Shown: positions 18,743 through 62,904 of the stretch, one piece after another
How the letters are laid out: every line of letters starts with the position of its first letter
How positions within the stretch are numbered: the stretch's first letter is position 1
Source of the DNA: Pelomonas sp. V22
GTDB lineage: Bacteria > Pseudomonadota > Gammaproteobacteria > Burkholderiales > Burkholderiaceae_C
Assembly (NCBI RefSeq): GCF_030014915.1
Contig: NZ_JAGIXS010000007.1
Span: forward strand, 124,001-188,000
Length of the DNA stretch: 64,000 bases
Reading direction: 5' to 3'
Position numbers and translations under genes: made by a program
Notes under the pieces: generated by a model
Told to the model about the DNA's origin: nothing
Databases searched by the model: none
The model's input: only the letters and a program-made list of their open reading frames with translations

Positions 18743-19402
18743 TCAGTGGCCTGGCGTGGCTTCCGGTGTCAGGCAGTGGCTCAGGCCCCAGCCCAGGCCG
18801 GCTCCCAGCAACTGAGCGGCGATGAAGCCGGGCGCGCTGGCTGGCGCGATACCTGCAAAGCTGTCGCTGAACATCCGGCCGAAGGCGGCGGCCGGGTTGG
18901 CGAAGGAGGTGGAGGCGGTGAACCAGTACGCCGCGCCGATATAGGCCGCCACCAGGGCCGAGGCACGGCCGGCCGGCGCACGCAGGATCACCAGCAGCAG
19001 GCCGGCCGTGGCCACCATCTCGGCGATCCACTGCCCCATGCCGCCGCGCAGCTTGCTGCTCAATTGCAGCAGGGGCAGCTCGAACATCGCATGCGCCAGC
19101 CACGCGCCCAGCATCGCGCCGAGCAGCTGCACGAGGATGTAGGGCAGCACGGCCGAGCGGGCCAGTTCGCCGCGCCAGGCCATCACCAGGCTCACGGCCG
19201 GGTTGAAATGGGCACCGCTGATCGGGCCGAAGACCTCGATCAGCACATAGAGTCCGCCGACGGTGGCCAGCGTGTTGGCCAGCAGGGCGATGGCGACGTT
19301 GCCGCCCGCGAGTCGCTCGGCCATGATGCCGGAGCCGATCACCACGCAGAGCAGGCCCAGGGTGCCGAGGCCTTCGGCCAGCAGTTTGCGCAGCAGGCTC
19401 AT
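18743..19402 (-). CDS. MIP-family channel of the arsenic operon (AqpS-like)
   Basis: A 219-residue aquaglyceroporin-fold membrane protein with six predicted helices and two NPA boxes, N67-P68-A69 (GAHFNPAV) and N169-P170-A171. After the second box the arginine that normally forms the aromatic/arginine selectivity filter (NPAR) is replaced by alanine (NPAAAFGR), which suggests a wider, less water-selective pore. It is the last gene of arsR-arsI-arsC-aqp, starting three bases after arsC ends. By comparison with the Sinorhizobium AqpS operon, it may let As(III) leave the cell down its gradient after ArsC reduces arsenate. That role is inferred from context. The substrate is not proven. Confidence 0.88.
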   Translation of the reverse strand: MSLLRKLLAEGLGTLGLLCVVIGSGIMAERLAGGNVAIALLANTLATVGGLYVLIEVFGPISGAHFNPAVSLVMAWRGELARSAVLPYILVQLLGAMLGAWLAHAMFELPLLQLSSKLRGGMGQWIAEMVATAGLLLVILRAPAGRASALVAAYIGAAYWFTASTSFANPAAAFGRMFSDSFAGIAPASAPGFIAAQLLGAGLGWGLSHCLTPEATPGH

Positions 19403-19405
19403 CGC

Positions 19406-19909
19406 TCAGCTCCTGGCAATGTCGTCGAGCGCCTGCTTGAGCGCCGCGCGGTCCAGCGTCGCCAGCGGCAGGGCCAGCAACTGCAGCATGCGGTAGCCGA
19501 TGGCCTGACGGGTCAATTCGAAAGCGCGGCGCTTGCCTTCTTCTCCGCCTTCGGCATTCGACGGGTCGGGGTAGCCCCAGTGCACCTTGAGCGGCTGCCC
19601 CTGCCCGCCAAAGAACACCGGGCAGGCCTCGGACGCCGCCGAGTCGCAGACAGTGATCACGAGGGACAGCGGCGGCGCCTCCGGCTTGGTGAATTCGTCC
19701 CAGCTCTTGCTGCGGTAGCCGGCCGTGTCGATGCCGGCGGCTTGCAAGGCCTCAAGGGCGAAGGGGTTGAGCCGGCCGCTGGGCGCGCTACCGGCGCTGA
19801 AGGCGCGCACCTCCTTGCCGAGCCGGGCGGCGAGGTGGTTGAGCATGCCTTCGGACAGCACGCTGCGGGCCGAGTTGTGGGTGCACAGGATCAGGACGTT
19901 GAAGCTCAT
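19406..19909 (-). CDS. arsC: Arsenate reductase ArsC (thioredoxin-coupled, LMW-phosphatase type)
   Basis: Reduces arsenate to arsenite in the cytoplasm. The 167-residue protein has the phosphatase-like anion loop CTHNSARS with nucleophile Cys9, and the redox pair Cys88 and Cys96 (TVCDSAASEACP), followed by WGYPDPS. This three-cysteine arrangement marks the thioredoxin-dependent class, not the glutaredoxin class. It starts eight bases after arsI with a GAGAGG element and is followed within three bases by the channel gene. Confidence 0.94.
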   Translation of the reverse strand: MSFNVLILCTHNSARSVLSEGMLNHLAARLGKEVRAFSAGSAPSGRLNPFALEALQAAGIDTAGYRSKSWDEFTKPEAPPLSLVITVCDSAASEACPVFFGGQGQPLKVHWGYPDPSNAEGGEEGKRRAFELTRQAIGYRMLQLLALPLATLDRAALKQALDDIARS

Positions 19910-19917
19910 GGGACCTC

Positions 19918-20352
19918 TCAGCAGCAGGCGCCGGCACCTGTCTTGGGCGTGCAGCAGGCTGAGGCGGCCTTGGGCGCTTCGTTGAACATCGGCACATCAG
20001 CCAGCGTGTGGAAGTGTTCCCAGGCGATGCCCTGCGGGTCGGTGATCCAGTGCTTGTTGCTGCGGGCGTAGCAGCAGGTGGTCTCGCCGGTGTCAGCCAT
20101 GGCCAGGTCGGCCTGGGCGGCCCGCTCGCGCAATGCGCCCAATTCGGCCTCGCTGTCGACCTGGAAACCCAGGTGGTCCACGCCGGGCTTGCCGCCGCGG
20201 GTGGAGATGGCGAAGTTGATGCGCGGGTCCTCGAGCATCCACTTGGCGTAGTCGCCTTCCTGCCGGGTCGGCGTGGCCGCGAACAGCTTGGAATAGAAGG
20301 CGATGCTCTGGTCCAGATCCTGGACATGCACATGGACGTGAAAACGCTTCAT
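19918..20352 (-). CDS. arsI: ArsI/CadI-family glyoxalase-fold metalloenzyme
   Basis: A 144-residue vicinal-oxygen-chelate protein. The family includes ArsI, a dioxygenase that breaks the C-As bond of trivalent organoarsenicals, and CadI. Likely metal ligands are a histidine in the HVHVHV strand (residues 5-9), His60 (VDHLGF) and Glu112 (AWEHFH). A vicinal pair Cys93-Cys94 (TTCCYA) sits where ArsI binds methylarsenite. The C-terminus has further CC pairs (ACCTPKTGAGACC). AAGGAG lies seven bases before the ATG. It is the second gene of the ars operon. C-As lyase activity is inferred from the family. Confidence 0.9.
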   Translation of the reverse strand: MKRFHVHVHVQDLDQSIAFYSKLFAATPTRQEGDYAKWMLEDPRINFAISTRGGKPGVDHLGFQVDSEAELGALRERAAQADLAMADTGETTCCYARSNKHWITDPQGIAWEHFHTLADVPMFNEAPKAASACCTPKTGAGACC

Positions 20353-20368
20353 GACGGTCTCCTTGGGT

Positions 20369-20695
20369 TCAGCATCTGCTGCAGGCTGTGGTGGTTGACG
20401 GCAGGCAGGCCTCGCCCTGGCAGCAGTTCTCGCTCAGGTAGGCGAGCAGGGCGTTCATGTGGCCGAAGTCGGCGCGGTAGATCAGGTTGCGGCCCAGGCG
20501 CTCCTGGGTGATCAGGCCGGCGCCCGACATCTCCTTCAGATGGAAGGACAGCGTGGCCGCCGGCAGCTCCAGGGCCTCCATCAAGGCGCCCGGCGTCAGC
20601 CCTTCATTGCCGGCCACGACCAGCAGGCGGTAGGCGCGCAGGCGGTAGGCATGGGCCAGGGCGGCCAGCGAGCGGATGGTTTGCTGTTCTTCCAT
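20369..20695 (-). CDS. arsR: ArsR-family arsenic-responsive repressor
   Basis: A 108-residue winged-helix repressor with the HTH at about residues 33-65 (ALELPAATLSFHLKEMSGAGLI) and a cysteine-rich C-terminus: Cys91, Cys92, Cys97, Cys105 and Cys108. The CCxxxxC arrangement resembles the As(III) site of the Acidithiobacillus-type ArsR, not the CVC box of the E. coli protein. It is the first gene of the operon and probably represses itself from the inverted repeat just upstream. No ribosome-binding site precedes the ATG, because the -10 box lies only about 17 bases upstream. Confidence 0.93.
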   Translation of the reverse strand: MEEQQTIRSLAALAHAYRLRAYRLLVVAGNEGLTPGALMEALELPAATLSFHLKEMSGAGLITQERLGRNLIYRADFGHMNALLAYLSENCCQGEACLPSTTTACSRC

Positions 20696-20803: not shown

Positions 20804-23029
20804 ATGCGACCTCGTTCTTCACGCGCGCGCATGAGCCCTGCCTCCCCCGGCGATCCGCCAGCCTCGCTGGCCCGACAGCTCTCACTGCAGATCAGCCTGC
20901 TGGTGGTGCTGATGGTGGGCGCCTTGGCGGCGATTGCCTTCTGGTCGGTGCAGCGCGAGATCGCCGAGGTGGTGCCCGACACCCTGCTCAGCACCGTGCA
21001 GTTGCAGGCGGCGCGGCAGGGCCAGTCTTTCCAGCTGGCCGATGGCAGCGTGCGGCGCCTGGAGCGCGAATGGCAGGAGCGGGCCGGGGCGCTGGGCGAT
21101 GGGCAGGCGCAGCAGCGCTTTGCCGAGCTGTTCGAGCGCTCGGCCGATGGCGTCTGGCGGCTGCGGCCGTCGCGGGTGGACGTCGACCATGCGCCGACCT
21201 TCTATCTGCAGGGCGGGCCGCAGCTGGACCTGCAGCTGCGCCGCCGCGCGGTGCTGAGCTACGAGCTGCTGCGCGAGCAAGGGCCGGCCCTGGTGCCGCC
21301 ATTCTTCTCGGCCTACACCGACTTCGTCGAGAAGGGCCTGATGGTCTACTCGCGCGGCATCGACTGGGGCAAGGGCGCGACGCCGGCCACCGACAACTTC
21401 AACTACCCGACGATGACCGGCGCCGACCCGCGCCGCAATCCCCGGCGGGAGGTGTTCTGGACCCCGGTCTATTTCGATGGCGAGGCCAAGGCCTGGATGG
21501 TCTCGGTCATCAAGCCGCTGGACTGGCGCGGGCGCTGGGTCGGCACCGTGGGTCATGACATCACCATCGACACCCTGCTGCAGCAGATCGGCGAGGCCGA
21601 CGCGGAGCTGGGCGCGCTCAGCATGATCCTGAGCCGCGACGGCCAGCTGATTGCCCACCCGGAATTGCGCGAGCGCATTGCCAAGGCCGAGGGCTAGTTG
21701 GCGGTGCAGAGCCTCGGCGACCCGCTGCTGAGCGCCGTGCATGCGCTGGTTGCCAAGAGTGGCAGCTCCTCGCAGGCGGCGCGCACGCCGGACGGCCGTC
21801 ACATGGTGGCCTGGTCACGCATTGCCGGCCCCGACTGGTGGGCCGTGCGCGTGGTGCCGCAGTCGCGCATCGACGAACTGCTGCACCGGGGCGTGTTCTG
21901 GATGCTGGCCGTGGGCGCCCTGATGCTGCTCGTGACGCTGTGGATGCTGCAGCGCGTGATACGCCAGCGGGTCAAGCAGCCGCTGAGCGACATCACCGGC
22001 TCGGTCGAGGCGCTGGCCGAGCGGGTCAGCCAGGGCGAGGAGCCCGAGTCCCTGCCAGCCCAGGGTTCGGCCGATCTGCAGCGGCTCTCGCAGGCCTTTG
22101 ACGCCATGGCGCAAGACCTGGCCGCCCAGCGCCGCCAGGAGCAGGCCGCCCAGGCGGCTTTGGAGCGCGAGGTACAGGAGCGTCGGCAGGCCGAAGAAGC
22201 GGTGCGCCTGCTCAACCTCTCGCTGGAGGCGCGGGTGCGCGAGCGCGGTGAGGCCTTGCAGCAGGCCCAGCAGGAGCTGGTGCAGCGCGAGACGCTGGCC
22301 AGCCTGGGTTCGCTGGTGGCCGGCGTCTCGCATGAGCTGAACACGCCCATCGGCAACGCCCTCATCTCGGCCGACACGGCGGCGGCGGCGCTGTCCCAGT
22401 TGCAGGCCCTGCTGGCCAGCGGCGCCGTGCGGCGCAGTGAGCTGGAGCGGGGCCTGCACCTGGCGCGTGAGAGCGCGGGCCTGGCCCTGGCCAATCTGCA
22501 GCGCTCGGCCAGCCTGGTGCAGGACTTCAAGCAGGTGGCCGTGGACCGCGCCAGCCTGCAGCGCCGCCGCTTCGACCTGCGGCGCGTCAGCGAGGAGGTG
22601 GTGCACCTGTTGCAGATCTCCTTGAAGACGCCGCAATTCAACCTGGTGCTGGACCTGCCCGCCGAGTTGCTGCTGGACAGCTTCCCCGGCGCCTTTGGCC
22701 AGGTGCTGACCAACCTGGTGCAGAACGCCGTGGTCCATGCCTTCGAGGGCCGCAGCCAGGGCTGCATCACCATCACTCTGTTGCGCAGCGATGAGCGGCA
22801 GGTGGTGCTCTGCGTCAGCGACGACGGCTGCGGCATTCCCGCCGAGCACCTGGGCCAGGTGTTCAAGCCCTTCTTCACCACGCGCCTGGGCCAGGGCGGC
22901 AGCGGCCTCGGCCTGCACCTGGTCTACAGCATCGTGCGCAATGTGCTGGGCGGCGAGATCGAGCTGCACAGCGAGCCGGGGCGCGGCACCCGGTTCGTCC
23001 TGACGCTGCCGCGCCACGCGCCCGACTGA
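20804..23029 (+). pseudogene. Sensor histidine kinase interrupted by an in-frame TAG
   Basis: One frame of 742 codons encodes a membrane sensor kinase but contains TAG at 21695-21697, codon 298. Before the stop are TM1 (about residues 27-47) and most of a double-Cache-like periplasmic sensor domain. After it, in the same frame, come the rest of that domain (ending DWWAVRVVPQSRI), TM2 (FWMLAVGALMLLVTLWML), HAMP, a coiled coil, the HisKA box (SHELNTP, His at codon 509 or so) and an HATPase with N, G1 (DDGCGIP), F and G2 boxes. Catalytic motifs look intact. Either the gene is a fresh nonsense mutant, or there is readthrough, restart at TTG 21698, or a base-call error. The start may be 20804 or 20831. 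Confidence 0.85.
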
Positions 23030-23109: not shown

Positions 23110-23838
23110 GTGAAAACCTTGCTGCTCAGTCTCCTGCTGCTGTTTGGACCCGCCGGTGCGGCGGAGGTCCACATGGCCTTTGGCGAGCGCATACCGCCGT
23201 TCTGCTTCCCGCAGACAAACTCCGGTATCGAGATTGAGGTGATAGGCGAGGCCCTGGCCTGGCGCGGCCACAAGCTCAAGCCGCAGTACTTCCCGTTCGC
23301 ACGTGTCCCGAAGGCCTTCATCGACGGCATGGTGGACGCCAGCATGACCGACCTGGGCCAGGACCTGGGTGCAGCAGGCGGCCATTACGGCGAGCCGGCC
23401 GTGCTTTACGACAACGTCTTCATCTCGCTGAAGGAGCGGCACCTGGTGATCAGGAAGCCCGAGGACCTCAAGGGTTTGACGGTGATCTCGTTTGCTGGCG
23501 CCGTGCGGCGCTATCCGCAATGGCTGGAGGCGGTCAAGGCGGCGGGCCATTACACCGAGCAGAACGACCAGGCCGTGCAGGTGCGCACGTTGATGAAGGG
23601 CCGCTACGACCTGGTGCTCAGCGACCGCAGCATCTTCAGGTACTTCGCACTGCAGTTCCGCCGCGAGGGTGGCGACCTGCTGCCGGTGGAGGAGCATGCG
23701 TTCACCACGGTCAATCCGCAGGACTACCGGCCGGTGTTTCGCAGCAGGCAGGTGCGCGACGACTTCAATGCCGGCCTCGAGCACCTCAAGAAAACCGGCC
23801 GCTACCAGGCCATCTACGACCGCTACCTCAAAGAGTAG
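23110..23838 (+). CDS. Periplasmic substrate-binding protein (SBP_bac_3 type)
   Basis: A 242-residue exported protein with a short signal peptide (KTLLLSLLLLFGPAGAA) and the family 3 solute-binding fold (MAFGERIPPFCF, IEIEVIGEALAWRGH, LVIRKPEDLKGLTV, FNAGLEHLKKTGRYQAIYDRYL). GTG at 23110 is the start that gives a normal signal peptide; GGGGAGGG lies about 13 bases upstream. It follows the interrupted kinase by 80 bases on the same strand. It might supply or modulate a signal for that kinase, but no transporter genes accompany it and the ligand is unknown. Confidence 0.82.
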   Translation: MKTLLLSLLLLFGPAGAAEVHMAFGERIPPFCFPQTNSGIEIEVIGEALAWRGHKLKPQYFPFARVPKAFIDGMVDASMTDLGQDLGAAGGHYGEPAVLYDNVFISLKERHLVIRKPEDLKGLTVISFAGAVRRYPQWLEAVKAAGHYTEQNDQAVQVRTLMKGRYDLVLSDRSIFRYFALQFRREGGDLLPVEEHAFTTVNPQDYRPVFRSRQVRDDFNAGLEHLKKTGRYQAIYDRYLKE

Positions 23839-61669: not shown

Positions 61670-61971
61670 AAGGGCCCCTGTACCAATCCCCGAAAACCAT
61701 AGACCCTCCGGTAGCCCGAATAGGACACCAGCTCCACCGTGCGCTGCTGCCCCGGCTCGAAGCGCACGGCGGTGCCCGAGGCGATGTTGAGGCGCATGCC
61801 ATGGGCGGCCGCGCGGTCGAAGCGCAGGGCGGCATTGGTCTCGGCGAAGTGGTAGTGCGAGCCGACCTGGATGGGCCGGTCGCCGCTGTTCTCCACCAGG
61901 AGCGTGAGCGTGCGGCGGCCCGGGTTCAGCAGGAGGTCGGGGCCGTCGGTGAACAGTTCGCCCGGGATCAT
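61666..61971 (-). CDS. ureB: Urease subunit beta UreB
   Basis: A 101-residue structural subunit ([19 protein letters not shown], then SHYHFAETN and [10 protein letters not shown]) that packs with UreA and UreC. Four-base overlaps with ureJ upstream and ureC downstream show tight coupling. Confidence 0.97.
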
Positions 61972-62519
61972 GCGACGAGCAGGCCGAGGCCCAGCAAGGC
62001 AATACCCAGACCACCGGCGCGCGGCAGCCACTGCGAGGCCCGCTGCAGGGCCAGGCCGAGCGCGATGCCGGCGCCATGCAGCAGGGCCGAGCCGGCCAGC
62101 ATGCCGAGCAGCGCGGCGGTGCCGCTCAGCTCCTGGCCATGGGCGGCGCCATGGAACAGGGCGAAGCCGGCCATGGGCAGCGCCGCCAGCAGCGGCCGAC
62201 GCGGTGCCATCAAGAGGGCGCCCATCACCAGCAGCGAGGCGGCGATCATGGGCTCGACAGCCGGCAGGCCCTGGCCCAGCAGCGCTCCCAGTGCCAGCAG
62301 GGCCATGAAGCCCAGCGGTGCCAGCCAGCGCCGGTTCGGGGTGCCAGCGCTCCAGACGCCCACGGCCAGCATGGCCGCCAGGTGGTCGAGGCCGGTGAAC
62401 GGGTGCAGCATGCCTTCGGCGAAGCCATGGTGGGCGGCGCCGTCGGTGCCGGCATGGGCGAGCGCGAGGCTGGTGCCCGCAGCGAGGGCCAGGACGAGGG
62501 GGAGGTGACGATGGTTCAT
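61968..62519 (-). CDS. ureJ: HupE/UreJ family nickel-uptake or accessory membrane protein
   Basis: A 183-residue inner-membrane protein with a signal-like N-terminus and about six hydrophobic segments. Family motifs [16 protein letters not shown] and FHGAAHGQE, with conserved histidines, suggest nickel binding or transport. Inserted between ureA and ureB and overlapping ureB by four bases. UreJ function is known mainly by association with urease and hydrogenase loci. Confidence 0.93.
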
Positions 62520-62543
62520 CTTGATGCGTGGCTCAGGCCGGAT

Positions 62544-62846
62544 TCATGCAATGGGTTGGTGCACGGTCACCAATTTGGTGCCATCGGGGAAGGTGGCTTC
62601 GACCTGGATCTCGGGGATCATCTCCGCCACCCCCTCCATCACATCGGCTTTCGTGAGCACTGTCTTGCCCTCGCTCATCAGCTGGGCCACGCTCTTGCCG
62701 TCGCGGGCGCCTTCCATGATGCTGGCGCTGATCAGGGCCACGGCTTCGGGGTAATTCAGCTTCAGGCCGCGAGCCTGGCGGCGCTCGGCCAGCAAGGCGG
62801 CGGTGAAGATCAGGAGCTTGTCGCGCTCTCTCGGTGTGAGGTCCAT
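62544..62846 (-). CDS. ureA: Urease subunit gamma UreA
   Basis: A 100-residue subunit with the standard start [23 protein letters not shown] and end VTVHQPI. First urease gene on this strand. ureD, which usually precedes it, is absent: a divergent gene begins 71 bases away. Confidence 0.97.
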
Positions 62847-62887
62847 GCCCGCTCCATCGCACAAAGGATGCCAGCGAGCTTGGCAGG

Positions 62888-62904
62888 GCGGCACGCGGCT
62901 TGCA
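62888..62904 (+). promoter_or_regulatory. Candidate sigma-54 (-24/-12) promoter
   Basis: CGGCACGCGGCTTGCA matches the sigma-54 consensus TGGCAC-N5-TTGCA at all but one position; the GG and GC dinucleotides are separated by exactly 10 bases. It points toward the receiver-like gene. Its expected transcription start, about 62915, leaves almost no leader before the ATG at 62918, which favours a start at 62936. Confidence 0.45.

Follow-up and report, generated by a model that had tools for sequence, protein, structure and literature searches.

In the window, i.e. the whole 64,000-nucleotide stretch of Pelomonas sp. V22 DNA that was analysed, a sensor histidine kinase gene occupies a single reading frame on the + strand from ATG 20804 to TGA 23027-23029, with TAG 21695-21697 as the sole internal stop (GGC TAG TTG at 21692-21700). 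Open stretches of 297 and 443 amino acids flank this codon on its N- and C-terminal sides, respectively, and both the codon-usage score and the GC content by codon position are coding-like on either side; no frameshift, indel or second stop was found in the gene. Regarding the translation start, ATG 20831 is more likely than ATG 20804 because a start codon lies at the same aligned position in the orthologues L038, L039, L050, L142, L144 and L145, in which case the stop would probably be codon 289 of the true gene. Residue numbering is kept here from ATG 20804, the stop being codon 298 and the conserved leucine that follows residue 299. The N-terminal part (20831..21694, + strand) would encode a first transmembrane segment (TM1) and most of a periplasmic double-Cache (dCache) sensor, as indicated by the start position in orthologues, the fold obtained with AlphaFold2 and Foldseek and weak matches to the dCache_1 profile, and the C-terminal part (21698..23029, + strand, stop TGA) the end of the Cache module, a second transmembrane segment (TM2), HAMP, HisKA and HATPase_c.

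Upstream and divergently oriented, the gene of an ArsR-family regulator (20369..20695, - strand) starts an arsI-arsC-aquaporin arsenic cluster. Of note, this cluster (18743-20695, - strand) is composed of the ArsR-family regulator, an ArsI/CadI-type VOC enzyme (138 bits, above the cut-off), an ArsC-like low-molecular-weight phosphatase family protein and a MIP/aquaporin channel, the latter occupying the place of the usual ArsB/Acr3 pump. Downstream, the gene of a family 3 extracellular solute-binding protein (23110..23838, + strand) follows the kinase gene after a gap of 80 bp, making co-transcription possible. A scan for promoter and terminator consensus sequences found nothing.

In the initial annotation, the TAG was described as splitting one frame whose two sides together encode a single Cache-HAMP-HisKA-HATPase kinase, and both the frame check and the homologues aligned across the stop confirm this. 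The two halves do not result from a chance join, since homologues encoded by single open reading frames (ORFs) align without a break over the TAG (residues 21-740, 53-67% identity). Two genuinely separate genes can likewise be ruled out, the close relatives all being single ORFs. As controls, three further pairs of neighbouring genes sharing a frame on this contig, each split by a TGA, were considered and correspond to separate ordinary genes according to Pfam. At 61968-62894 (- strand), the urease gamma subunit gene is followed in the same frame by a HupE/UreJ gene in an ordinary urease cluster.

Among the domains, HATPase_c (PF02518) is far above its Pfam cut-off (94.4 bits vs. 26.4), with the N, G1, F and G2 motifs present (NLVQNA, DDGCGI, FFTT and GGSGLGL), while HisKA, with an aligned and conserved SHELNTP motif bearing the phospho-acceptor histidine, falls 0.2 bits short (26.7 vs. 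26.9) and HAMP is slightly below its own cut-off. All the catalytic motifs described at first as intact 3' of the stop are indeed kept. The Cache assignment comes from the predicted fold and from weak profile matches throughout the family: the N-terminal part alone gives only a weak match to an MCP-like PDC (Cache) profile, and dCache_1 scores 25.2 bits against a gathering score of 45, with weak matches in 11 of 11 family members. Modelled by AlphaFold2 with 11 orthologues, the read-through sensor region reaches a mean pLDDT of 81 and is predicted to adopt a tandem PAS-like fold, i.e. a long N-terminal helix and tandem Cache domains, between the two transmembrane segments. Among solved structures, the best Foldseek matches to this model are the sensors of the amino-acid chemoreceptors Mlp24 (Cache ligand-binding domains, E about 1e-10) and PctA, together with sensor kinase domains such as 3lib. 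The predicted arrangement of a tandem Cache between two transmembrane helices, followed by HAMP-HisKA-HATPase, thus resembles that of dCache sensor histidine kinases (mmHK1S-Z3, PDB 3lib; sensors of PctA and Mlp24), from which this locus differs by a score under the dCache_1 cut-off, by a sensor broken at the four-fifths point and by the lack of a recognised adjoining response-regulator gene. In the model, the stop precedes the final helices and three strands of the Cache module nearest to the membrane; owing to TAG 21695-21697, sensor and kinase do not form one polypeptide here.

At codon 298, all the 14 distinct close orthologues (counted after removal of genomes found twice; 53-67% identity over the whole length) encode glutamine, by CAG in 12 cases and CAA in two, and all are single uninterrupted ORFs with sensor and kinase in one polypeptide. 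These full-length orthologues occur in related genomes including Paucibacter sp. Y2R2-4 (L038), a Roseateles metagenome-assembled genome (MAG; L039) and others of the same family; those of L038 and L039 are about 65% identical to the read-through protein along its entire length and differ from it by a glutamine codon (CAG) instead of TAG and by other gene neighbours. Homologues from Dechloromonas/Azonexus (37-39% identity), each one uninterrupted gene, also have CAG at this position, and at greater distance the residue is Asn, Lys, Arg or another. Comparison of the homologues at this codon, as proposed in the initial annotation, hence gave glutamine in the close orthologues, none of which ends there, and a stop in no aligned homologue. 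An in-frame TGA noticed in one homologue (G121) lies at the extreme 5' end of the matched region, where it precedes the earliest start codons of the ORF, and is not an internal stop. As all the close orthologues carry CAG or CAA there, a single C-to-T transition, CAG to TAG, would account for the amber codon. The gene contains 52 CAG codons and could reach a stop by 189 different single-base changes, so that a nonsense change somewhere in it is in itself unremarkable.

Downstream of the stop, the comparison with orthologues shows no faster evolution than in relatives. Across 212 alignment columns invariant in the other 11 aligned orthologues, this protein deviates at two, none of them before the stop, which is unremarkable for the orthologue set. 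Its terminal branch amounts to 0.298 substitutions per site in the N-terminal half and 0.205 in the C-terminal half, while L038, L039, L050, L053 and L055 show the reverse, with longer branches for the C-terminal half; the latter is not relaxed here, since its branch is shorter than that of the N-terminal half whereas most relatives show the opposite. The part after the stop has consequently been free of constraint for no measurable time. An old pseudogene is ruled out, there being neither further lesions nor a rate increase. Because the conserved sites and motifs after the stop are kept and the rate is not raised, the nonsense change would be either recent or absent from the organism. The suggestion that the gene has just been inactivated thereby gains good support, namely an ancestral CAG/CAA glutamine codon, one change and no further decay. 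Nevertheless, the preservation of the C-terminal half is compatible with a very recent mutation and with an artefact alike, does not by itself separate either from a continuing function, and is equally expected from a base-call error or from leaky expression.

The main rival to a genuine mutation, considered rather unlikely, would be an error of base calling or assembly or a clonal artefact, with an intact natural gene. A lone lesion with no other decay, for which a C-to-T change at one base suffices, in a genome available as a draft of 27 contigs, is what such an artefact would look like; against it, the assembly appears good (100% complete, 0.05% contamination) and well-covered assemblies seldom contain isolated substitution errors. 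We infer that the organism really carries this base and makes no functional amount of the kinase.

A restart of translation at TTG 21698, put forward in the initial annotation, would yield a 443-residue kinase and is possible in principle: the TTG lies immediately 3' of the stop, a Shine-Dalgarno-like GAGG tetramer (21689..21692, + strand) precedes it by 5 nt, which makes a weak restart possible, and TM2 as well as every kinase motif are intact and not relaxed. The TTG is, however, the ordinary codon of the conserved leucine 299, likewise TTG in intact orthologues such as L038, L052 and L058, and the GAGG, located within a Glu-Gly codon pair (GAG-GGC) also found in the intact L039 and L058, is probably coincidental on comparison of the orthologue codons. 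Since both elements occur in intact orthologues, they would be by-products of the coding sequence rather than features evolved for restart, and no relative is split at this point. Restart at TTG is usually weak. According to the model, what remained of the protein would be the last three Cache strands, TM2, HAMP and the kinase core, TM1 and the bulk of the sensor being gone; such a kinase would be signal-blind, with constitutive activity or a phosphatase role as possible outcomes. Altogether, this explanation is improbable.

Tolerance of the stop by readthrough, the other possibility raised at first, finds no support. ARAGORN, run on stretches covering all 55 tRNA matches of the genome, showed no CUA anticodon; besides, a selenocysteine tRNA (UCA anticodon) is present at G000:C1:853758-853848. 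The RF1 gene (prfA) is present, above its cut-off and intact. The 360-kb contig, which represents about 7% of the genome, has 30 predicted genes with a terminal TAG; of these, the kinase gene alone continues in frame with coding character, and no other TAG of the contig was seen inside a coding frame. A stimulatory RNA structure at the TAG was not found either, the fold being no better than that of shuffled sequences (z 0.18). A change of genetic code or a suppressor is ruled out by the lack of a CUA tRNA, the presence of RF1 and the normal behaviour of the other TAG stops of the contig. There remains near-cognate decoding at a useful level, which would restore the original residue: the ancestral residue here is glutamine, and in recoded E. 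coli devoid of RF1, near-cognate suppression places glutamine, along with other residues, at UAG (PMC6207430). With RF1 present, the background level should be low and, in view of the above, useful readthrough is very improbable. It is likewise very improbable that the amber codon is both tolerated and useful, low-level glutamine readthrough or restart at TTG 21698 uncoupling the kinase from its sensor so that a small amount of signal-independent kinase would have been selected in the strain.

The gene is accessory and patchily distributed. It was matched in 22 of 401 genomes of the family and in 9 of 18 in one related genus, and is absent from the one genus-mate genome examined. Its own genome holds no second intact copy, the other matches covering only the kinase part with at most 47% identity. 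Neither a conserved neighbourhood nor a partner response regulator was found next to it: LysR, PspC and EamA genes were recognised beside the L038 orthologue and alanine racemase and HD-domain genes beside that of L039, two sets that have nothing in common with one another or with the neighbours in the window, and the solute-binding protein gene was not recognised beside the orthologues examined. Because the neighbours differ, no adjoining response regulator is recognised and a minority of the family has the gene, it is an accessory orphan kinase, a kind of gene often lost.

Taken together, the likely explanation is a recent nonsense mutation through which an accessory dCache sensor kinase would have been lost entirely or almost so. 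A single CAG-to-TAG (Gln to amber) change would have broken, in this genome, the gene of an orphan sensor histidine kinase organised as TM1, periplasmic dCache sensor, TM2, HAMP, HisKA and HATPase. Translation would stop once about four-fifths of the periplasmic sensor had been made, leaving a membrane-anchored, incomplete Cache domain devoid of the final strands, of TM2 and of any kinase domain, and signalling by the kinase would most likely be lost or nearly so; the mutation would be recent, since nothing else in the gene has decayed. The case resembles bacterial pseudogenes arising by nonsense mutation in having one in-frame stop in an accessory, patchily distributed gene of which all close relatives have an intact version, but differs in that signs of age are lacking, be it a second lesion or relaxed evolution beyond the stop. 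The observation is real but ordinary biology, a nonsense mutation ranking ahead of an artefact, then of restart at the TTG and finally of useful readthrough. In terms of annotation, the two ORFs should be recorded as one disrupted gene and not as two genes. If real, this locus would offer a clean case in which one base has silenced an accessory sensor kinase with all else preserved, and from which reversion would be possible in principle, every other part being kept; it would bear on the strain-level loss of signalling genes and not on new coding or regulatory mechanisms.
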